Assembly: GCF_030409795.1 (NCBI RefSeq)
Contig: NZ_JAUFQN010000019.1
Span: 558,001-622,000 of the forward strand
DNA from: Flavobacterium paronense
GTDB lineage: Bacteria > Bacteroidota > Bacteroidia > Flavobacteriales > Flavobacteriaceae
Reading direction: 5' to 3'
Length of the DNA: 64,000 bases
The position numbers and the translations under genes are program-made. The notes under the pieces were generated by a model that was given only the letters and a program-made list of their open reading frames with translations, did no database searches and had not been told where the DNA came from. This document shows, in pieces, positions 5,902-41,498 of this stretch; the stretch's first letter is position 1, and each line of letters opens with the position of its first letter.

Positions 5902-7341
5902 TTAATTAACGTCCCAGAATAATTTTGTTGTTAAAGTATTTCCACCGATTGCAGTAGAAGCCGCTTCAAGGTTTGAAGCATTTAATGTTTCTTCTCTTGC
6001 AGGATAAGTGTATCTTGTTGGAACTTGATTTACTTCAGCATCATCAGGAGCAGTTAAAACTGGGAAATCCAATCTTCTGTATGATGTCCAGCATTCAAAT
6101 CCACGGTTGTATAATCCAAGGTAAGCTTGTTCACCTATTTTTTGTTTCCAATTACCGGTAGCAGTTGCATAAGCCACACTTGGTTGCGCTAAATAAGATG
6201 CAATATCCTCACTAGAAACACCCCAGTAGTTCATAGAAGCAGTAATGGCAGCATCATAATGAGACGTTGAAGTACCGCCTACAGCAATACCTCTTTCAAC
6301 AGCTTCAGCTAAAAGGAATTCAACTTCAGCGTTGTCCATAATTAAACCTTCAAAAGTTGGTTCTAATAACATATCTCCAATATGAGAGAAGTTGTCAAAA
6401 TTATTACTTGATCCAGGAGTTCCTCCTTCATAGATATCTCCAATTTGAGTAAAGAACTTTGCTCTTCTTGGATCGTTTAATCCATTCATTTTCTCTATTA
6501 CAGTACTTGTTGGAACAAAGTCATTTCTTCCGCTTGCTACAACATCAACAAATACAGGGTTTGCATTTGGTTGTGCTGATAAGTATTTTAATGCGGCGTT
6601 ATCACTATTGCTAGAGATTACCCCATCAGCTACTGCTGCTAAAGCTTGAGTAGTTGCATAAGCATGATCAACATCGTCTAAATTAATAGCTAATTTTAAT
6701 CTTAATGAATTAGCAAATAATTTCCATTTTCCTGCATTACCACCATAAACTAGATCAGCAGTTCCAAAACTATCATAACCTGAATCTAAAGATGCTGAAG
6801 CAGCAGTTAATTTAGCAATTAAGTCTTTGTAAATAGTTTCACCATCATCATATTTTGGATTAGGAAAAGCTTCAATATCTAATGATTCAGTGTAAGGTAC
6901 ATCACCAAAAGTATCTACTAATACAGAATAAGAATAAGCAGTAAGAATGTCAACTATGGCAATTCTGTTGGCGTTTTCAGCTTCTTCAGCCGGAGTTGCT
7001 GGTTCGTATAGTTGTAAATAACTTTTAGATTCTTTCAAATCTCTTAATACATCTCTATACATAACCGCCCAATGATTGTCTGGAATTGTTCTTGTTCCGA
7101 TATCATAGTTACTTTCGTCAGTATAAGTTGTTTCGGTCCATTGTTGTGTGAACAACCTAAAAACATTGAAGTTTACACTAGTGCTTACCATTTGGTCAAC
7201 AACGTTCTTTTGAGCGTTGGTAAAGAGGTAAGCTGCAGGTACAACAGTGGCATCTTTTGTATTTTGGTTTAGCCCTGTTATATCGTCAGTACAGGAAAAT
7301 ATACCTGTAAGGACTACAATCGTTAATAATATCTTTTTCAT
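5902..7341 (-). CDS. SusD/RagB-like outer-membrane lipoprotein
   Basis: 479 residues with a lipoprotein signal (MKKILLTIVVLTGIFSC, lipidated Cys at residue 17). Alpha-helical TPR-like SusD fold of the SusD-like 2 type: LFTNAQKNVVDQM near the N-terminus, FRLFTQQWTET, a central DILTAYSYSVLVDTFGDVPYTESL and a C-terminal FECWTSYRRLDFPVL. SusD proteins cap the SusC channel and help capture glycans or peptides. It is 5 bp downstream of the susC-like gene, so the two are one transcription unit. No glycosidase or peptidase is adjacent, so the ligand cannot be inferred. Confidence 0.95.
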   Translation of the reverse strand: MKKILLTIVVLTGIFSCTDDITGLNQNTKDATVVPAAYLFTNAQKNVVDQMVSTSVNFNVFRLFTQQWTETTYTDESNYDIGTRTIPDNHWAVMYRDVLRDLKESKSYLQLYEPATPAEEAENANRIAIVDILTAYSYSVLVDTFGDVPYTESLDIEAFPNPKYDDGETIYKDLIAKLTAASASLDSGYDSFGTADLVYGGNAGKWKLFANSLRLKLAINLDDVDHAYATTQALAAVADGVISSNSDNAALKYLSAQPNANPVFVDVVASGRNDFVPTSTVIEKMNGLNDPRRAKFFTQIGDIYEGGTPGSSNNFDNFSHIGDMLLEPTFEGLIMDNAEVEFLLAEAVERGIAVGGTSTSHYDAAITASMNYWGVSSEDIASYLAQPSVAYATATGNWKQKIGEQAYLGLYNRGFECWTSYRRLDFPVLTAPDDAEVNQVPTRYTYPAREETLNASNLEAASTAIGGNTLTTKLFWDVN

Positions 7342-7346
7342 TTTTT

Positions 7347-10300
7347 TTAGAATTTAAATGTTAAGTTACATCCTATATTTCTTGTTGTAGGTAAAGAACC
7401 AACAGAATATCCAGATGATAAATTACCTGAACCTAAACCGCTTTCAGGGTCTGCATCCGGTAAGTTTTTCTTGATTATCCATAGGTTGGTACCAACTACA
7501 CTAAATTTTATACCATCAATTGATAGTTTGTCTGTCCATTTTTTAGGTAAATCATAACTAATAGCAACTTCTCTAAGTTTAATATAAGAAGCATCATATA
7601 CAAACGCTTTGTTAGGTTGTCTTCTGTATCCAAAGCTATTTCCAAAATATTGAGGTCCTGGAGCTCTAGTGGTGTTTGGAGTTCCGTCAGCAAGTACACC
7701 AGGAAGAATAATACCTCCTGAATCAGCACCACTTGTAACAGCATCTCTAATTGGGTTACCAAGGTCATTAAGAGCAGCAGTTTCATCATACAAACCAGTT
7801 GCTAAACCATAAGATCTGTCAAGAGAGAAGATATCTCCTCCTTTTTGCATATCAATTAAGAAACTGAATGAAAGATTTTTGTAGTTGAATTTGTTTCTAA
7901 TACCACCAATCCAATCTGGAGTAACATTACCAATATTGTTGTTAGAGCTATTGTTTAGAACATATCTACCATTAGCACCTACAACTCTTTGACCGTCTAA
8001 ATAAGTAAAATCAGTTCCTTTAATTACTCCGTATGGCTGACCTACTTCAGCATTAATCGTTACACCACCTTGAAAACTACCTAATTGTAAGTTTGTAATA
8101 CCCTCATTTAATGAAATAACCTCATTTCTGTTGCTAGACCAGTTTAATGTTACATCCCAAGAGAAATCTTTAGTTCTTACAGGTGTACCAGTTACTTGTA
8201 ACTCAAATCCTTTGTTTTGAACCGAACCAGAATTAACTACTCTAGAATTATATCCTGTAGAAGTTGAAAATGGCACATTGAATATTTGATCAACAGTTAA
8301 CGATTTGTACATAGAAAAATCTACAAATAAACGTTTGTTAAACATATTCAATTCTATACCAATTTCTTTAGTATCTGTTTTTACAGGTTGAAGGTTTGGA
8401 TTGTTTTTGATAGAGTTTACAGAGTATAAATAAGAGGTGTCAAATGGATCTACCCTATCATAAGTATCGATTAACGATTGAGTTGGGTTTTCAAGTGGGC
8501 TTTCTGCATAAGCTACTCTTATTTTTCCGAAATTTAACCAGCTTTGTTTAAGTAATTCTGAGAATATTAAACTTCCACTAATTGATTTAGTTGTTAATAC
8601 GTTATTGTCTATTGGTAACGAAGCAAAGGCATCTCTTCTTACAGTACCTTCTAAATAGGCTAATTTTTTATATCCTAAAGTAAGTTGTCCATAGTAGCTA
8701 TTTACACCACCACCGTTAATATTTCGTTCAACTGGCGAAGGTAAAGTTCCAACAGAGTTTGAAAGACTATAAATACCTGGTAACAATAAACCACCTTGAG
8801 TAGATGATAAAATACTGCTTGAACCTACTCTTTTAATAGTTCCTCCAGCTAAAGCTCTAACATCAAATTTGCCATAATCTTTGTAGGCATTGAAAATTAA
8901 ATCATAGTTGTTTTCACGATAGGTTCTGTTGTATCTTTGGTATCCTGATGCTTCATCCAAACGGTTAATTCCAAATTCAGCAGCTACTGAACCTTGAGCT
9001 CTTCTTTCTTCTTGAAGTTCAGAGTAAGAATCATTTGATATTCTGGTTAAAGCAGATAACCAACTATTAATTTTATAATCTAAATTAATATATCCCAAAA
9101 ATCTATCTCTACTATCACTTGAGTAGTTTTTATATCTTTGGAAGTAAGGGTTGTCCCAATAGGCCGGAGTTAAATCGGTTGGAGATTTGATATTCCAAGT
9201 AACGTTTTGACCACCTGAAGCATTATAAACTTGCTCTAATGATTTTAAATCAACGTTAGTTTGCCACCATTGACGGAAATTTGACATGATGTTGTCATTG
9301 TATCCTGTAGAGTTTCTTCCTACGGTGTTTTGAGAAATAAAACTAGCAAAAACAGAGGCGCTTAATTTTTCAGTAAATTTATGATTGAATTTAGCACTGA
9401 AATTATTTTTCTTTAATTCACTATTTGGCATTAAACCATTTTGTTTCAAATTAGAAAAGTTAATCAAAAAGTTTGATTTATCATTTCCGTCTTCAAGAGA
9501 TATTGAATTATTTAAAGAAACAGGAGTTTCAAAGAAAGAGATAGGACCATTTTTTGCATTTTTCCACTCTGTTTTTTTCCCAAAGTTTGGAGAGTAAGGA
9601 GTGAAAGCATCCCATTGGTATACTAAATGATTGTCAAATGGAGCACCAAAAGAAGCATCTTCGTAAAACGGAACTAAATCGTCTTGTGTTCCATCTCCGT
9701 CAATATCTGCTTGGTTAAAGTAAGCATCTTCATCTGGACCATAATACAATCCATAACCAGCACCATATTTATTTTGGTATTTTACGAAAGTACTTTTATC
9801 AACACTTCCTACAATTATTTCACTTGAAACGGTAACGCCCATTCCTTTTTTGCCTGATTTTCCTTTTTTAGTTGTAATCATTAAAACGCCATTTCCAGCT
9901 TGATACCCATAAAGAGCACTTGCAGCTGGTCCTTTTAAAACGTTCACCGATTCAATATCTGCAGGGTTAATGTCAGAAGCGGTACTTCCATAATCAAATG
10001 ATGTTCCTCTACCATTTCTTTGACTTGTTGTATTTGTATTTGAATTGTTAACAGGAACACCATCAATAACGATAAGCATTTGATTTCCACCTGTTAAGTT
10101 TCTGATACCTCTTCCAACAACGTCAGTAGAACCTCCGAAGTTATTGTTTCTTCTGATTTGAACACCGGCAACTTTACCAGATAAATCATTTAAAACATTC
10201 CCTCCCGTACCACCAGCATTAAGGTCGGTACCTTTTACTTCTTGTGTGGCATAACCAAGAGATTTTTTATCTCTTTTTACACCCAATGCAGTAACAACTA

Positions 10301-35954: not shown

Positions 35955-35994
35955 TTTTGTTTTAATTAATACCCGGCCACCTTGTTTATCCTTA

Positions 35995-36058
35995 CGTCAC
36001 TTCGAGTGATTCCATCACGTTATTTTCAACGAAACGGAATCGTATCGAGAAGCCTAAA
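35995..36058. repeat. Dispersed repeat with CGTCACTTCGAGTGATTCC, copy 1
   Basis: CGTCACTTCGAGTGATTCC ... GGAATCGTATCGAGAAGCCTAAA; the second copy at 36543-36593 is shorter in the middle. The GATTCC/GGAATC pairs make it a hairpin. The two copies bracket the small gene at 36116-36493. Confidence 0.75.
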
Positions 36059-36115
36059 TCAGCTACCTGCAAGCCTTTAGGTTGGCTGCGATAAACCACT
36101 GTTGGCGATAATTGA

Positions 36116-36493
36116 CTAATCCGAACCTAAACAAGTCTCGTAACCACTTATAATATTAATTTTCGCAAAAAAGTGTTTGCCATATACTAGAACTACAGAA
36201 TTATCTTTGATCCAAATTTTGCGTACTTTTGATTTACCAACTAAAGGTTTTCCGCACATTCTAATAATATTCTTAACCCATAAAATTTTACCTTTTTGTT
36301 CCGCAGCAATTGTCTGTTTATCTTTTCCTAAATAGAATTTAATCTCGTGTGCATATTTTAATTTGCGCAATTCCGTCATTTGTTTGATATCGATTCCAAA
36401 ACGCTCGTTTTTTTCGACAATTTTTTGAGCAAAACCGAATTGCGTAAAAAGTAATTTGAGGACTAAAATTGTAAATAAGTTTTTCATAGTCAA
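36116..36493 (-). CDS. Small secreted protein of unknown function
   Basis: 125 residues with a signal peptide (MKNLFTILVLKLLFTQFGFAQ; the ATG at 36487 is an equally good start). The mature part is basic and beta-rich (KILWVKNIIRMCGKPLVGKS), with two cysteines (Cys89 and one near the C-terminus) that could form a disulphide. No family recognised. Bracketed by the 35995 and 36543 repeats. Confidence 0.6.
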   Translation of the reverse strand: MTMKNLFTILVLKLLFTQFGFAQKIVEKNERFGIDIKQMTELRKLKYAHEIKFYLGKDKQTIAAEQKGKILWVKNIIRMCGKPLVGKSKVRKIWIKDNSVVLVYGKHFFAKINIISGYETCLGSD

Positions 36494-36542
36494 TTGTTAA
36501 TTCAATTACAGCTAACAGCCTACAATTCTTTGTTTATCCGAC

Positions 36543-36593
36543 CGTCACTTCGAGTGATTCCAATGGAATCGGAATCGTATCGAGAAGCCTAAA
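36543..36593. repeat. Dispersed repeat with CGTCACTTCGAGTGATTCC, copy 2
   Basis: Same ends as the 35995 copy; the middle is reduced to AATGGAATC, which forms a tight stem with the preceding GATTCC. Confidence 0.75.
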
Positions 36594-36645
36594 CCACCTA
36601 CATGCCATCCGGTTGTGCAAAACCGAAGTTAACAGCAAACATTTT

Positions 36646-37608
36646 TTAATCTGCTATATTTTCATTAATCTTCTCTTGCCCAATTCTAATAAACATCCAA
36701 ATGGGTAGGACTACCATAGGTAAACTCGGCAATCCTCTTAATAGCCCATCATATTTTAATAAATCTTGAAATACTTGTGGCGAATACTGTTTATTTAAAA
36801 CCAATTGAATGTCTGGTATAAAGTAATAAGCAGTAATGAAAACAATCCAAACATAAGCAACAGCATAAAGGGTAATAAATGTTAGAGGAATAGCTTTTGG
36901 TCGCTTCCAAAACATAGCAATCAATGCAAATAGTGGTAAATAGGCCGGAATTAAAAATGTCACCCAAAATGAAAGAGCGCTGCCTGTATTTCTAAAAGGT
37001 AACCAATCAGTTTCTCCAACACTAAACCATAAATTATAATTAACTAACCCTTCAATTGCTCCTGTTCCTGCTGTAAAAAAAGCGAATGAAAATAAAATGA
37101 TGAAAGTCCATCTCGAAAATAATTTGGTATCCTTTAAATAGTTGTTCAATAACCAAAAAGCGAATACTACTTGTATACATGCGGGTATAATTTGGACATA
37201 CAGATTTAAGTTCATTAAATTTTGAAAAGCACTTTCATTGTAATTTTTATTTAAATAATCGGTGAAAATTGGACTAACCAAATTTGGGTAAACAAGCACC
37301 AAAACAAAATTAATAACAACAGAAAGTAACACAACCCAACGAGGAACTATTTTAGGTCTAAACCACAGCAAAGCAACAGTAGATAAAAGTAAAAGAATAG
37401 GAGAATAGGCCTGAAGCGTTCGGGTTAAACCACTATAAATTTGAATATAATTTTGATAATTTTCATGTACTTTTTCAAAGCTTGGATAGATAACCATTCG
37501 GGTCATAATAGCAATTCCAAAATAATAAAAAGTAAGCAGTAAATAAAGCTCCGTTACATAAAGAGACTTTTGTTCATAAAGAGCTTGCTTTGTGCTTAAT
37601 TTCTCCAT
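36646..37608 (-). CDS. Polytopic membrane protein of unknown function
   Basis: 320 residues with about eight transmembrane helices. Distinctive segments: FYYFGIAIMTRMVIYPSFEKV in helix 1-loop, TGAIEGLVNYNLWFSVGETD and a loop with LLRGLPSLPMVV near the C-terminus. No transport or enzyme motif recognised. Preceding small membrane-protein gene (37760-38149) is on the same strand but 151 bp away, so co-transcription is uncertain. Confidence 0.7.
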   Translation of the reverse strand: MEKLSTKQALYEQKSLYVTELYLLLTFYYFGIAIMTRMVIYPSFEKVHENYQNYIQIYSGLTRTLQAYSPILLLLSTVALLWFRPKIVPRWVVLLSVVINFVLVLVYPNLVSPIFTDYLNKNYNESAFQNLMNLNLYVQIIPACIQVVFAFWLLNNYLKDTKLFSRWTFIILFSFAFFTAGTGAIEGLVNYNLWFSVGETDWLPFRNTGSALSFWVTFLIPAYLPLFALIAMFWKRPKAIPLTFITLYAVAYVWIVFITAYYFIPDIQLVLNKQYSPQVFQDLLKYDGLLRGLPSLPMVVLPIWMFIRIGQEKINENIAD

Positions 37609-37759
37609 AATTAATTTTAGTTTGATTATTAAATTTGCCGGTATAGCAGTCTACTTGCTGGTAACTTTCCTCACATTCACTCATTAACAACAACTTACCC
37701 CTAATCGTAAAGATATATAATTTTCCTTTTGAGTAATTACTTGCTTAGAAAACAACCCA

Positions 37760-38149
37760 CTATTTCCTTATCCTACTCAAAAATTGTTTTCGTAAATAAA
37801 ACGGAATGTACAATAGCATCACATGAAATAAAACAATAACTGGAGATAGCCAAGTAAAACTAAGTATAAAAGGGAGGACTAATAAAACGCCCAATAAAAT
37901 AAATACACCACCTGCATCATCATTCTTTGCCGACAATAAGATTAGATTTTGAACCAAAACTATAACGAAAAACAGCACTACTAAAATAGGGGCTATCGTG
38001 CCAATAATCAAACCTGCGTTGGGAACAGTATAATAGGTATAAGCAAACCATAAAACTAGCGCATACAAAACGGTTTGTATACTACTACTTAACAAAGAAA
38101 GTGGAATTAAATAGTTGTATTTAATCATGTTGATTTTGGGTAATATCAT
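37760..38149 (-). CDS. Small membrane protein of unknown function
   Basis: 129 residues, four predicted transmembrane segments (LIPLSLLSSSIQTVLYALVL first). ATG 38149 gives MILPKINMIKYNYLI; the second ATG at 38128 is an equally plausible start. The first 111 bp of its coding sequence are duplicated 305 bp upstream (38344-38454). The 180-bp repeat element A begins seven bases upstream of its start codon, so any promoter must lie inside the element. Confidence 0.65.
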   Translation of the reverse strand: MILPKINMIKYNYLIPLSLLSSSIQTVLYALVLWFAYTYYTVPNAGLIIGTIAPILVVLFFVIVLVQNLILLSAKNDDAGGVFILLGVLLVLPFILSFTWLSPVIVLFHVMLLYIPFYLRKQFLSRIRK

Positions 38150-38155
38150 TGTTGC

Positions 38156-38335
38156 ACAAAGTGTTCTCTTTTAGCACTAAGCTGCGCAAATGTCTCCTGA
38201 CTTTGCGCTTTGTTATTCATCATAACTCGTTTCGCTCTAGTTGAACTATAGCGCCGATTATACCTTATCAAATTTATAAAAAAAGGTGCGCAAAGTCAGG
38301 AGACATTTACGCAGCTTTTCTTAGGAACACTTTGC
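38156..38335. mobile_element. Non-autonomous derivative of the RAYT element, copy A (180 bp)
   Basis: Begins CACAAAGTGTTCTC and ends GGAACACTTTGC; the outer 50 or so bases on each side are an imperfect inverted repeat containing TGCGCAAATGTCTCCTGAC and its complement. The left half still carries GTTATTCATCATAACT, which in the full element encodes the last residues and stop of the transposase. The transposase gene is replaced by about 34 bp around CTAGTTGAACTATAGCGCC. Same length as copy D. Confidence 0.85.
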
Positions 38336-38343
38336 TGAGCTGG

Positions 38344-38454
38344 ATAAGCAAACCATAAAACTAGCGCATACAAAACGGTTTGTATACTACTACTTAACAA
38401 AGAAAGTGGAATTAAATAGTTGTATTTAATCATGTTGATTTTGGGTAATATCAT
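38344..38454 (-). pseudogene. Duplicated 5' fragment of the 37760-38149 membrane-protein gene
   Basis: Nearly identical to 38039-38149 at a constant 305-bp offset, including the start codon. It encodes the first 37 residues, then runs into the end of element A. Homology continues upstream into element B (through 38532, matching 38227), so gene start plus element were duplicated as one unit. Confidence 0.88.
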
Positions 38455-38460
38455 CGTTGC

Positions 38461-39203
38461 GCAAAGTGTTCTCCTTTAGCACTATGCTGCGCAAATGTCT
38501 CCTGACTTTGCGCCTTGTTATTCATCATAACTAATATATTTTGAAATTGAATTAGGGTTCATAACATTGACGACCGGAATTTGAACCATTTCAACTTCAA
38601 GAATTCCTTTGCCATCAATATAGTTTGAAGCACTCGAATAAACATAATCTTGTGGCTTTAAAACAATACCTGCACGAACAGGATTAAAATGAATATAATC
38701 GATTTTTGACCACATAAATTTTTCAGAATAAATTTCTTCTGCATGATTACCCAATTGCCAAAACTGATAATTTTTATTTCTTGAATGTGTTTCTGTAGCC
38801 AATTTGAATCGTTCCAACATCCATTCTCGTCTGCTTTCAGGTTCTGATTGAATTTTATCTAAAATAGTTTTAGAAGTAAATTTTTTAAAATCACGAATTA
38901 AATCCGACAGTTTTCCATCATTTGATTGAACTATCATGTGAATATGATTGCTCATTATTACATAACTGTACAAAATCATTCCTTTGTTTTTAATGCAAAA
39001 ATCAAAGCACTCAATTATAGTATCTCTATAACTTTTTCTTGAAAAAACGTCAACCCAATCGACAATTGTTGCCGTTAAAAAATGTGGCAATGATTGATCT
39101 CTTATAACATAGCCTTCTTTCATAAGATTTTACTTTATCAAATATAAAAAAAGTTGCGCAAAGTCATGAGACATTTGCGCAGCTTTTCATAGGAACACTT
39201 TGC
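38461..39203 (-). mobile_element. RAYT-type transposable element B, full length (743 bp)
   Basis: One transposase gene flanked by long imperfect inverted repeats: left 38461-38512, right 39156-39203, both with the TGCGCAAATGTCTCCTGAC core. 57 bp lie between the left end and the transposase stop, 80 bp between the transposase start and the right end. Copies A, C and D share both ends. Confidence 0.85.
38518..39123 (-). CDS. REP-associated tyrosine transposase (Y1, HuH)
   Basis: 201 residues. HuH motif H60-I-H62 in MSNHIHMIV, and YIHFNPVRAG with the probable catalytic Tyr143; both are signatures of RAYT/TnpA-REP proteins of the IS200/IS605 superfamily, which cut single-stranded hairpin DNA. 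FWQLGNHAEEIYSEKFM is also typical. The frame is intact, so it could be active. Its last five codons and stop lie within sequence shared with the gene-less copies, so the C-terminus is encoded by the element end. The C-terminal tail after about residue 170 is not conserved in my memory of the family. Confidence 0.93.
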   Translation of the reverse strand: MKEGYVIRDQSLPHFLTATIVDWVDVFSRKSYRDTIIECFDFCIKNKGMILYSYVIMSNHIHMIVQSNDGKLSDLIRDFKKFTSKTILDKIQSEPESRREWMLERFKLATETHSRNKNYQFWQLGNHAEEIYSEKFMWSKIDYIHFNPVRAGIVLKPQDYVYSSASNYIDGKGILEVEMVQIPVVNVMNPNSISKYISYDE

Positions 39204-39212
39204 TGAGCTGGT

Positions 39213-39246
39213 TTAGTTACCACGCGAAAGGATTCGCGCGGGAGCG
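39213..39246. repeat. 34-bp direct repeat with CGCGAAAGGATTCGCG palindrome, copy 1
   Basis: Identical over 34 bp to 40242-40275. The core CGCGAA/TTCGCG forms a hairpin with loop AGGA. Located ten bases beyond the right end of element B. Confidence 0.9.
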
Positions 39247-39254
39247 GGAAAAAA

Positions 39255-39284
39255 AAAGAGTTAGTTTTTTTAAACTAACTCTTT
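39255..39284 (-). terminator. Rho-independent terminator for the 39311-40117 gene
   Basis: Perfect 13-base arms (39255-39267 and 39272-39284) with a 4-base loop. On the minus strand the stem is followed by a run of T (A run 39249-39257 on the plus strand). Confidence 0.88.
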
Positions 39285-39310
39285 ACATAAACAAAACTAT
39301 TACCAATTAA

Positions 39311-40117
39311 TTATTCACACCACAATACTAGAGTTACTTCTATTATTCCATTTTGGTTCAATAACGAATCTGAAAGAACTATTGGACCAATTGAGGTAAC
39401 TCCACAAAAGTAATCTTGAAAACCACCAAAATTATAGGTGCCTTTTGGTAAATTTAAAAAACAATCTCCTCCGTTTTGATTTCCTTGATCGTTATTAGGA
39501 TATAAGTATTCACCAGTTAATGTATTTACAGCATAAAATCCGGGTTGATAACTAGTTGTGTTTCCTTGGCTATCAACAACTTTAATGCAAACATTGTAAG
39601 TTTTATTTAATACTTGCAATTCTTGTACATTTGTAATTATGTTTCTCGCGAAATTAAATTGTTTAGTAAGAGCCGATCTTAAGGGAGTAACTAAATTTAA
39701 AGCCAATGAATTATTACCAGAATTAACAGCAGTTACAATTTGATTAGTTAATAAATAAACAACATCATTTTGTTGTAAAATTTTTGCAGTCAAATCGTTA
39801 ATTAGTGCGGTAGAAAAAGCAATAGAAGAACTAGATTGAGCTGTAGCAACATAATAATCAACATTGTTAGCATTAGTTTCTTTCTCATCATTACTGTTTG
39901 TCATGATAGTAGCAAACAAAACTATATTTGGATTTCGAATAATAGTTAATTGTTTTACCAATTGATTTACTGCTTTTCTAGATACAGTAACTTCTTGTTT
40001 AATATTTTCAGCTGATTGAATTGCTGAACTTAAATTTTGCTCTGCTACAGTTTGAGCAAATGCACTTCCGAAAACAAATACGCTTAGTGTTAAAGCATAA
40101 AAAATAATTTTTTTCAC
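39311..40117 (-). CDS. Secreted protein of unknown function
   Basis: 268 residues, signal peptide (MKKIIFYALTLSVFVFGSAFAQ). Residues 25-170 are helical, rich in Ser/Asn/Gln and lacking cysteine; residues 170-268 are beta-rich with four cysteines (NVCIKVVD, GDCFLNL, DYFCGV, terminal WCE), possibly a disulphide-stabilised domain. No family recognised. Has its own promoter core and terminator, and lies between two identical 34-bp repeats. Confidence 0.7.
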   Translation of the reverse strand: MKKIIFYALTLSVFVFGSAFAQTVAEQNLSSAIQSAENIKQEVTVSRKAVNQLVKQLTIIRNPNIVLFATIMTNSNDEKETNANNVDYYVATAQSSSSIAFSTALINDLTAKILQQNDVVYLLTNQIVTAVNSGNNSLALNLVTPLRSALTKQFNFARNIITNVQELQVLNKTYNVCIKVVDSQGNTTSYQPGFYAVNTLTGEYLYPNNDQGNQNGGDCFLNLPKGTYNFGGFQDYFCGVTSIGPIVLSDSLLNQNGIIEVTLVLWCE

Positions 40118-40147
40118 AATAAAAAAATGTTTAGATTAGTAATGAAA

Positions 40148-40155
40148 CAAAGTTA
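40148..40155 (-). promoter_or_regulatory. Promoter core for the 39311-40117 gene
   Basis: TAACTTTG on the minus strand, 30 bp upstream of the start codon; fits TAnnTTTG. No TTTG at -33. Confidence 0.5.
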
Positions 40156-40241
40156 TTTTAAATAGCTTTAATAGATTTATTTTGTTAATTATCAAATCTT
40201 TACAAATATGTAATGTTAAAGTAAATTTAGTATAATTATGG

Positions 40242-40275
40242 TTAGTTACCACGCGAAAGGATTCGCGCGGGAGCG
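40242..40275. repeat. 34-bp direct repeat with CGCGAAAGGATTCGCG palindrome, copy 2
   Basis: Identical to 39213-39246. It abuts the truncated left end of element C (from 40278), so the element's first 13 bases were lost or replaced at this junction. Confidence 0.9.
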
Positions 40276-40277
40276 AG

Positions 40278-40444
40278 CTTTTAGCACTAAGCTGCGCAAA
40301 TGTCTCCTGACTTTGCGCTTTGTTATTCATCATAACTCGTTTCGCTCTAGTTGAACTATAGCGCCTATTATACCTTATCAAATTTATAAAAAAAGTTGCG
40401 CAAAGTCAGGAGACATTTGCGCAGCTTTTCGTAGGAACACTTTG
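40278..40444. mobile_element. Non-autonomous RAYT-element derivative, copy C (167 bp, left end truncated)
   Basis: Matches copies A and D from CTTTTAGCACTAAG to GGAACACTTTG, including the 34-bp centre (one base differs, GCCTATT for GCCGATT). The outermost 13 bases of the left end are missing and replaced by the 34-bp repeat. Confidence 0.85.
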
Positions 40445-40455
40445 TCGAGCGGGGT

Positions 40456-40944
40456 CTATTCAAGACTTGTTGTAACCGATTTAGAACAACCACTACCTTT
40501 TCTACAAGCATCGCAATACCAATCAATTACATTGCCAGGACCTACTTCATGTCTAGGATTACAACCTCTAGTACATCCACCACTACAGGTACAAGTGCCA
40601 CTTAATAAAACATTATCTTTAAAAGAGGCTACAAACACATTATCATTCAATGCTAAATCAAAAGCAATTTTGGTGCTCCCCATATTGTCTTGAGCGACCA
40701 AAATATAATAGACTCTGGATGGGTCATTCACAAAAGAATCTTTTACTATTTCAAATTCTGTTAAAACGGCATTGTTTTTTATTGCCCTCAGTTTTTCCTC
40801 TAAAACTTTTTTCAAAAAAGACTTATCAATTGTTATTTTGTAAATATCTTTTTCTACTACACCAATTTCTTTCTTGGTTATTTGTGCATGGCCGACACAA
40901 CTTGTTAAAAATAAAGCAAGTAAGCAAACTAATAATTTTTTCAT
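40456..40944 (-). CDS. Cysteine-rich lipoprotein of unknown function
   Basis: 162 residues. Lipoprotein signal (MKKLLVCLLALFLTSC, Cys16). Residues 25-115 are an unremarkable soluble domain. The last 45 residues hold seven cysteines: CTCSGGCTRGC, then WYCDACRKGSGC. The CxC/CxxC spacing suggests a metal-binding or multiply disulphide-bonded knob; no family recognised. The stop codon is 12 bases from element C. Confidence 0.68.
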   Translation of the reverse strand: MKKLLVCLLALFLTSCVGHAQITKKEIGVVEKDIYKITIDKSFLKKVLEEKLRAIKNNAVLTEFEIVKDSFVNDPSRVYYILVAQDNMGSTKIAFDLALNDNVFVASFKDNVLLSGTCTCSGGCTRGCNPRHEVGPGNVIDWYCDACRKGSGCSKSVTTSLE

Positions 40945-41230
40945 ACTTTTATAAATTAAAATTATTTTGCAGTCCTACTTTTGTCTTCTAAAACAATTAA
41001 TAAGGTAGGGCTGCTTTTTTTGGTTGGTTTGGTCGTAATTTCATTTAATAACAAACCTCTAAAATAAATGAAATTTTAATTTGATGTAATTGTGAGAGGG
41101 TAAGTCTCTTAGTTTTCCATTTATAGATTTAAATGTCTTGTAAATCTATATTTTAATTAGGGTAAACAAGTACACTAAAAGTGTACATTTTCATCAAACG
41201 TATTATTAATTTTAGAAAGTTCCTCGTTTT

Positions 41231-41410
41231 GCAAAGTGTTCTCTTTTAGCACTAAACTGCGCAAATGTCTCCTGACTTTGCGCTTTGTTATTCATCATAA
41301 CTCGTTTCGCTCTAGTTGAACTATAGCGCCGATTATACCTTATCAAATTTATAAAAAAAGTTGCGCAAAGTCAGGAGACATTTGCGCAGCTTTTCGTAGG
41401 AACACTTTGC
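41231..41410. mobile_element. Non-autonomous RAYT-element derivative, copy D (180 bp)
   Basis: Complete copy: GCAAAGTGTTCTC to GGAACACTTTGC, same length as A and nearly identical to it. The inner arms GCGCAAATGTCTCCTGACTT and their complement pair perfectly; the whole element can fold into one long hairpin with a smaller central stem. Confidence 0.88.
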
Positions 41411-41435
41411 TGAGCTTGTGGTTGAGTTCTTGTCT

Positions 41436-41468
41436 ACACCTGACAGGTTTTTAAAACCTGACAGGTGT
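41436..41468. repeat. Palindrome of the ACCTGACAGG family, copy 3
   Basis: Same core as 30541 and 35924 with one asymmetric base (ACCTGACAGG on both arms). It lies 31 bp beyond the stop of the M1 fusion gene, where it could act as its terminator. Confidence 0.75.
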
Positions 41469-41498
41469 TCTTTTTAGTACACCACAGGCTTTAAATTA

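Follow-up and report, generated by a model that had tools for sequence, protein, structure and literature searches.

A probably transposon-like RAYT element of Flavobacterium paronense and its clustered gene-less, REPIN-like derivatives

We analysed a 64,000-nucleotide stretch of the Flavobacterium paronense genome (contig NZ_JAUFQN010000019.1, positions 558,001 to 622,000; hereafter the window), which carries a RAYT gene (REP-associated tyrosine transposase, REP standing for repetitive extragenic palindrome) within an element that we call B, together with three shorter, gene-less elements, A, C and D. Comparison with related genomes makes it likely that this RAYT is still transposon-like and repeatedly yields gene-less derivatives resembling REPINs (units of two inverted REPs), and that A, C and D stem from one deletion and spread nearby. 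The alignments establish the anatomy of the elements, the single deletion, repeated deletions in relatives, the clustering of copies, the occurrence of full elements as units and joints at a fixed place. All four elements lie within 3.3 kb and in one orientation, at the places given by the initial annotation, although their right ends run about 5 bp further than had been proposed.

Element B (38461..39208, minus strand) contains a RAYT gene (38518..39123, minus strand) whose 201-amino-acid reading frame has no internal stop. The protein carries the HuH motif as NHIH (residues 59–62), the catalytic Y143 and a WQ pair (122–123), and scored 100.7 bits against the family NF047646 REP_Tyr_transpos (cut-off 80) and 32.4 bits against Pfam Y1_Tnp (cut-off 23), which bears out the intact HuH/Y1 transposase between inverted repeats recognized initially. 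Residues H60, H62 and Y143 are invariant among 11 aligned proteins; in an alignment of 15, H62 and Y143 are invariant and H60 almost so. The gene is under purifying selection (ratio of non-synonymous to synonymous substitution rates, dN/dS, 0.06–0.11 for B against four relatives). A predicted structure of the protein, used as support only given its low confidence (mean pLDDT 54), matched 17 solved structures at E ≤ 0.001, all of them Y1 transposases and including the RAYT 4er8; a sequence search of solved structures returned no match at E up to 0.1, and a PHROGs search matched no family. Element B is likely to be a complete RAYT transposon, in which a gene for a HuH/Y1 single-strand-DNA transposase lies between inverted REP hairpins and outer arms. 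The same genome contains a second RAYT (G000:C19:343087-343590, locus L014), 47% identical, whose flanking hairpins are a different REP around AGCACGGATTGCAAATCCGCGCT.

The ends of all four elements carry one and the same hairpin. The 25-bp sequence GCGCAAATGTCTCCTGACTTTGCGC has eight matches in the window at up to three mismatches (none in shuffles) and, at the same threshold, eight in the whole 3.64-Mb genome (26 contigs), i.e. four elements with two ends each. The left-end hairpins lie on the plus strand at 38184..38208 (A), 38489..38513 (B), 40294..40318 (C) and 41259..41283 (D), and the right-end hairpins on the minus strand at 38288..38312 (A; one mismatch), 39156..39180 (B; one mismatch), 40398..40422 (C) and 41363..41387 (D). 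By DNA folding the REP reads GCGCAAA-T-GTC-TCCT-GAC-TTTGCGC, with a 10-bp stem, one unpaired T and a four-base loop; its foot is GCTGC or GCTCC, without a GT[AG]G guide, and a second arm lies outward of the hairpin at each end. The two ends of one derivative pair to give a single long hairpin; for D the folding energy is −41 kcal/mol on one strand and −43 kcal/mol on the other, with z about −10. Because each derivative ends in inverted REP hairpins that carry an outer arm, A, C and D resemble REPINs, contrary to the initial annotation, which had set them apart from these. They share with REPINs the two inverted REPs within one long gene-less hairpin, but not the many dispersed copies, as there are three and all within 3.3 kb. 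A weaker hairpin lacking the bulge occurs elsewhere in the genome (C19:1818946). In relatives, a short palindromic insert, TGAACTGCCCCCAAAAAGTTAGACACTATTTGGGGGCAGTTCA, lies within the REP at the right end of one RAYT element (L030, genome G079), and the loops of the left REP of L201 and the right REP of L249 hold a longer palindrome, CCCGAAAGCTTTCGGG or near it.

Elements A (38156..38340), C (40278..40450) and D (41231..41415) all lie on the minus strand and, in the manner of miniature inverted-repeat transposable elements, combine both parental ends with a deleted core. The leader that they keep stops about 2 bp upstream of the start codon of B, and the gene end that they keep, AGTTATGATGAATAA, comprises the last 15 bp, encoding SYDE and the stop, i.e. 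four codons rather than the five originally counted. Of the 34-bp centre first described, which is indeed common to A, C and D, only 28 bp lack a counterpart in B (38228..38255 in A, 40338..40365 in C and 41303..41330 in D, plus strand), while the remainder aligns with the upstream sequence of B (85%). Both ends are retained in A and D as had been claimed, but the alignment of C with D begins at position 13, so that the left end of C is short of its first 12 bp. This truncation aside, a few per cent separate the three derivatives from one another, and at their ends A and D diverge from B by about 5–11%, so that the deletion probably arose in a sister copy of B or an older one. The centre has three matches in the window (none in shuffles) and three in the genome at up to three mismatches, with no source detected elsewhere in that genome at this threshold. 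At up to two mismatches it was present in one of 378 genomes, that of F. paronense itself, and absent from the other 377 of the genus, which argues for a single shared deletion event, as proposed at the outset. The simplest history would be one deletion with filler DNA, followed by copying. The hairpin of the centre is weak (z −1.9), and a 22-letter pattern of it had no exact match in viral contigs. Derivation of the centre from the REP of the second RAYT was also considered and rejected, as the hairpin differs.

Derivatives of the same kind recur in relatives, in agreement with the original view of A, C and D as internal-deletion derivatives of a RAYT element. Regions from relatives (genomes labelled G and loci labelled L) were scanned by a script seeking inverted ends; the underlying survey covered 398 genomes, 167 of which had a match, and scored two candidates per genome, so that copy counts are lower bounds. 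The script reported 29 gene-less inverted pairs, two of which are places seen twice (L056 and L065), leaving 27 distinct pairs in 14 genomes, the window included. All but one of these (26 of 27) are collinear with the two ends of a RAYT-bearing element; among the 26, a pair of 575 bp has a long unrelated interior. The exception, L075 8033-8160, matches at one end only. The deletion points vary: the gene start is kept in G318, the 5′ leader is fused directly to the last codons in G069, of which G395 holds a decayed version, and a single cluster in G091 comprises elements of 857, 596, 319, 298, 295 and 293 bp. Internal-deletion copies were found within 3 kb at 16 of 80 named RAYT loci, several directly adjoining the parent, and 15 of the 17 copies at these loci, not all of which were checked by eye, have the orientation of the parent. 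An inverted repeat scoring above all 30 shuffles (which keep base content only) was detected at 72 of the 77 named loci with enough flank, and the GTCTC-GAC core occurs within 260 bp on both sides of 68 of 78 named loci, against 2 of 118 distant stretches that contain one. The lower stem of the REP varies among these loci.

Sequence comparison further places full RAYT elements, as units, at unrelated sites. The 803-bp element of Flavobacterium sp. UBA2787 (G317; query 1001-1803 of 2803) matches elements of F. lacus (G182) and of G363 with 87–88% identity, the matches spanning query 1001-1817 and 1001-1802, so that homology stops at the element edges; no flank match of comparable strength was found in the 14 genomes searched. 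Smaller parts of this interval are matched in G095, G167 and G089. A second element, 87% identical, lies elsewhere in the UBA2787 genome; the one-contig genome G109 contains two full elements 1.8 kb apart that are 92.6% identical end to end and whose 350-bp flanks share one end-like piece only; and two RAYT loci, 90.5% identical over 954 bp, lie on separate contigs of F. aquidurense. A syntenic RAYT element shared by F. lacus and UBA2787 is 96.7% identical, the host stretches being 88–92% identical, and directly to its left F. lacus has extra partial copies of 134 and 349 bp plus end pieces that UBA2787 lacks. This comparison provides no clean empty site, because the DNA to the left of the extra copies differs. 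An end piece is also present in G312 where the homologous stretch of G202 has none.

Where elements and end pieces abut, the joints fall at a fixed place within the REP. In many clusters an end piece that extends from the outer terminus as far as ...AAATGTC is fused to the terminus of the element that follows, and 16 strict joint contexts were found in 14 records ranging from Flavobacterium to Aquimarina and including several REP stem types (stem sequences GCAAAT, GCGAG and GCGAA). Of 394 contexts of outer termini, 32 adjoin a REP interrupted just after GTC and a single one adjoins another tested REP position; as the next base in an intact REP is usually T, the joint corresponds to the C-T step on the loop edge. 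The TnpAREP proteins of E. coli, Stenotrophomonas and Marinomonas cut at C-T in vitro, that of Marinomonas also at C-A (PMC8266576). The loop joints are probably made by the RAYT; microhomology is a possible cause for the loop TCCCG, and less so for TCTGA or TCCTGA. The window's own four elements contain no loop joint.

The distribution of REPs was surveyed in 199 genomes of the genus with a pattern representing one REP variant. Close matches were present in 50 genomes, with at most 13 sites each; 150 sites in 36 genomes were typed, out of about 200 by the per-genome counts, and genome sizes were rounded. In the multi-site genomes, 105 of 140 listed sites had another within 5 kb (random placement: mean 2.1, at most 8); after inverted pairs had been merged into elements, this held for 64 of 109 elements (random placement: mean 1.0, at most 7). 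A RAYT of the same subfamily (identity of at least about 55%, counting partial and broken copies) was found in 35 of the 199 genomes; here and below, such RAYT counts are those among the matches listed. The REP pattern occurred in 18 of these 35 genomes versus 32 of the 164 others (odds ratio 4.4, Fisher p 0.0002, ignoring relatedness), with means of 2.83 and 0.62 sites per genome respectively.

RAYTs have been described as single-copy genes that do not make copies of themselves (PMC3116915, PMC8049555), and REPtrons as not appearing to transpose as a unit (PMC6006769). On a standard reading, the RAYT of the window would be a domesticated REPtron that serves its host and makes no copies of itself, and A, C and D would be ordinary REPINs. 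The two inverted REPs and long hairpin fold of each derivative (z about −10), the purifying selection on the gene (dN/dS 0.06–0.11) and the tracking of REP presence with RAYT are all in keeping with this, but we consider it very unlikely, given that full elements are found in multiple copies and at sites unrelated to one another, that the derivatives retain RAYT leader or gene-end sequence and that no more than 13 REP-pattern sites were found in any of the 199 genomes.

Host DNA around the elements is itself repeated in places. Element A is bracketed by a 117-bp direct repeat, X, which the initial annotation had not noted, with one copy to the left of A (38039..38155, in the 5′ part of the open reading frame 37760-38149) and another between A and B (38344..38460); the two are identical at 116 of 117 positions. 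A host gene beside A (36646-37608) is accessory, being detected at E ≤ 1e-10 in F. paronense and in 2 of 397 other genomes. A 34-bp palindrome-bearing repeat lies directly right of B (39213..39246), with an identical second copy directly left of C (40242..40275); there are two copies in the genome at up to three mismatches. Several palindromes resembling it occur in L021, and one lies beside a RAYT end in L041. Host repeats also bracket RAYT elements in F. circumlabens (259 bp, 97% identity, with a 48-bp remnant at 81% in Flavobacterium sp. LC2016-23), in Chryseobacterium piscicola (104 bp, 88%) and, for one element, in F. aquidurense (42 bp, 86%). In a strict scan, bracketing repeats were detected at 10 of 122 elements versus 2 of 455 mismatched controls, the remaining 112 elements having none. 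By our own reading six of the ten contain element-end DNA (L083, L203, L242, L247 twice and L252), and four are host DNA (A of the window, L219, L222 and L237), L219 and L222 being taken as one event; a further host repeat, around L249, was seen in the flank comparison but not in the strict scan. The host repeats around A, L219/L222, L237 and L249 measure 42–259 bp, and the flank repeats of L252, L196, L176 and L177 form part of compound arrangements. Long duplications as a general rule were rejected, as only 10 of 122 elements passed and six of these involve element-end DNA. As a lead and not a rule, the long host duplications could be target duplications, or tandem duplications followed by loss of one element. 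At L085 of G312, an end piece together with a RAYT element or one of its derivatives comes after each of two similar host stretches (7202-7679 and 9003-9507), an arrangement that resembles the X-A-X-B order of the window.

Such repeats could also mean that ordinary local duplication, whether by slippage, by template switching or by unequal recombination in hairpin-rich DNA, multiplied the copies, the RAYT element being the seed and its enzyme uninvolved. This would account for all copies lying within 3.3 kb in a single orientation, for the nearly identical copies of X around A, for the host genes of G312 that are duplicated along with elements, for the clusters of partial end copies and for the direct repeats in the flanks of RAYTs (30 of 71 named loci versus 7 of 213 mismatched pairs, some of the 30 being element pieces). 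We nevertheless regard local duplication as rather unlikely: the flanks of C and D are unlike, the 34-bp repeat at C aside; the joints follow GTC in REPs of different stems (32 versus 1 at other tested positions); full elements lie at unrelated places with homology stopping at their edges; and G109 contains two end-to-end copies.

We favour instead a transposon-like RAYT acting on its own deletion products. An internal deletion that began some 2 bp upstream of the start codon, ended four codons short of the stop and was filled with 28 bp would have given rise to the common ancestor of A, C and D, which would then have spread nearby, most likely via RAYT action on their unchanged ends. The RAYT would cut after GTC, at the C-T step at the loop edge, make the joints and move the derivatives in trans; existing REPs would be favoured joining sites, and copies would therefore stay local. 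A number of observations weigh against this interpretation. Strict locality and a single orientation also fit duplication without a transposase. The copies of X (116/117) are far more alike than the ends of A and B, so that the arrival of A was no plain IS200/IS605 insertion. No clean single-element empty site is available for A to D, as the entire 5.5-kb stretch 35967-41495, which comprises several small open reading frames and all four elements, is missing from G327 and G341, the closest relatives with synteny that were identified; G341 has about 1.45 kb of other DNA in its place. Only one of 225 right-terminus contexts is followed by something like the other half of a REP, and this reads as host DNA; with the far-side half not found, the joints are to be seen as tandem end pieces, and simple nested insertion into REP loops was rejected.

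The link between RAYT and REP is also incomplete. The 180-bp sequence proved private to F. paronense, and hence not widespread in genomes lacking a RAYT, but its end hairpin occurs in 32 of the 164 genomes in which no subfamily RAYT was visible; the anticipated tracking of repeat with RAYT accordingly shows as an enrichment to which those 32 carriers are exceptions. Conversely, 17 of the 35 genomes with a subfamily RAYT lack the REP pattern, some of them because their REP differs. Genome G054 has nine REP sites and no RAYT match at E ≤ 0.001 among the matches listed, and three of its gene-less pairs are collinear with RAYT elements. Given the enrichment on the one hand and RAYT-free carriers such as G054 on the other, we regard the link as real but loose. 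No transposition was observed, and the interpretation first offered for this region is partly supported: it was right on the origin of the derivatives and stays unproven on their movement.

A bolder reading, which we put forward tentatively and with more doubt than confidence, is that this RAYT family preserves the postulated REPIN ancestor in living form, i.e. a still mobile element that continually produces gene-less REPIN-like derivatives, cuts and rejoins its own REP loops at a fixed C-T step and sometimes inserts with host duplications of about 40 to 260 bp. We know of no IS200/IS605-type element with long target duplications of variable length. The recurrent shortened copies in relatives may show the birth of a common class of bacterial DNA repeats, and since several related species whose hairpins differ hold the parent next to its deletion products, the proposal for the origin of REPINs becomes directly testable. 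Full RAYT elements in multiple copies also call into question the view that a RAYT does not copy itself (PMC8049555).

Among known systems, the REPIN/RAYT systems of Pseudomonas and E. coli (PMC3116915, PMC8049555) are alike in having, next to a RAYT, a gene-less unit built of two inverted REP hairpins, and in the proposed origin of this unit from REPs flanking an ancestral element; the elements described here differ in their low copy number, local clusters, readable RAYT-derived interior and multi-copy full elements. TnpAY1 subclass 2.6 (RAYT group 5; PMC6006769) resembles B in its phylum (Bacteroidetes), in the motifs NH[LIV]H (here NHIH) and WQ, both present in B, and in atypical hairpins without GTAG, with a median HuH-Y spacing of 82 (81 here). 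Its Y motif is printed as YIH[QN]NP, whereas B has YIHFNP and its relatives mostly YIHLNP, with one YVHLNP; the passages on this subclass do not mention deletion derivatives or loop joints. TIRtrons (TIRYT; PMC3733652) likewise have a RAYT-like gene between long inverted repeats, some of which occur as dimers or clusters, but these repeats are mostly unrelated to REPs, the portions of that paper drawn on here contain no internal-deletion series, and the word Flavobacter is absent from its main text. The PATEs of Haloquadratum (PMC3119063) are also gene-less core-deletion derivatives with palindromic ends, but they derive from archaeal IS605-type elements, lack inverted terminal repeats and are not RAYTs. 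IS200/IS605 elements are stated to produce no larger target duplication (PMC2817692). Literature searches, whose coverage did not extend to the 2017 RAYT-group classification, yielded no description of the features reported here.

Just to the right of D, the window contains a near-perfect inverted repeat (41437-41468; ACACCTGACAGGT...ACCTGACAGGTGT), and a similar inverted repeat lies near the RAYT of L031.

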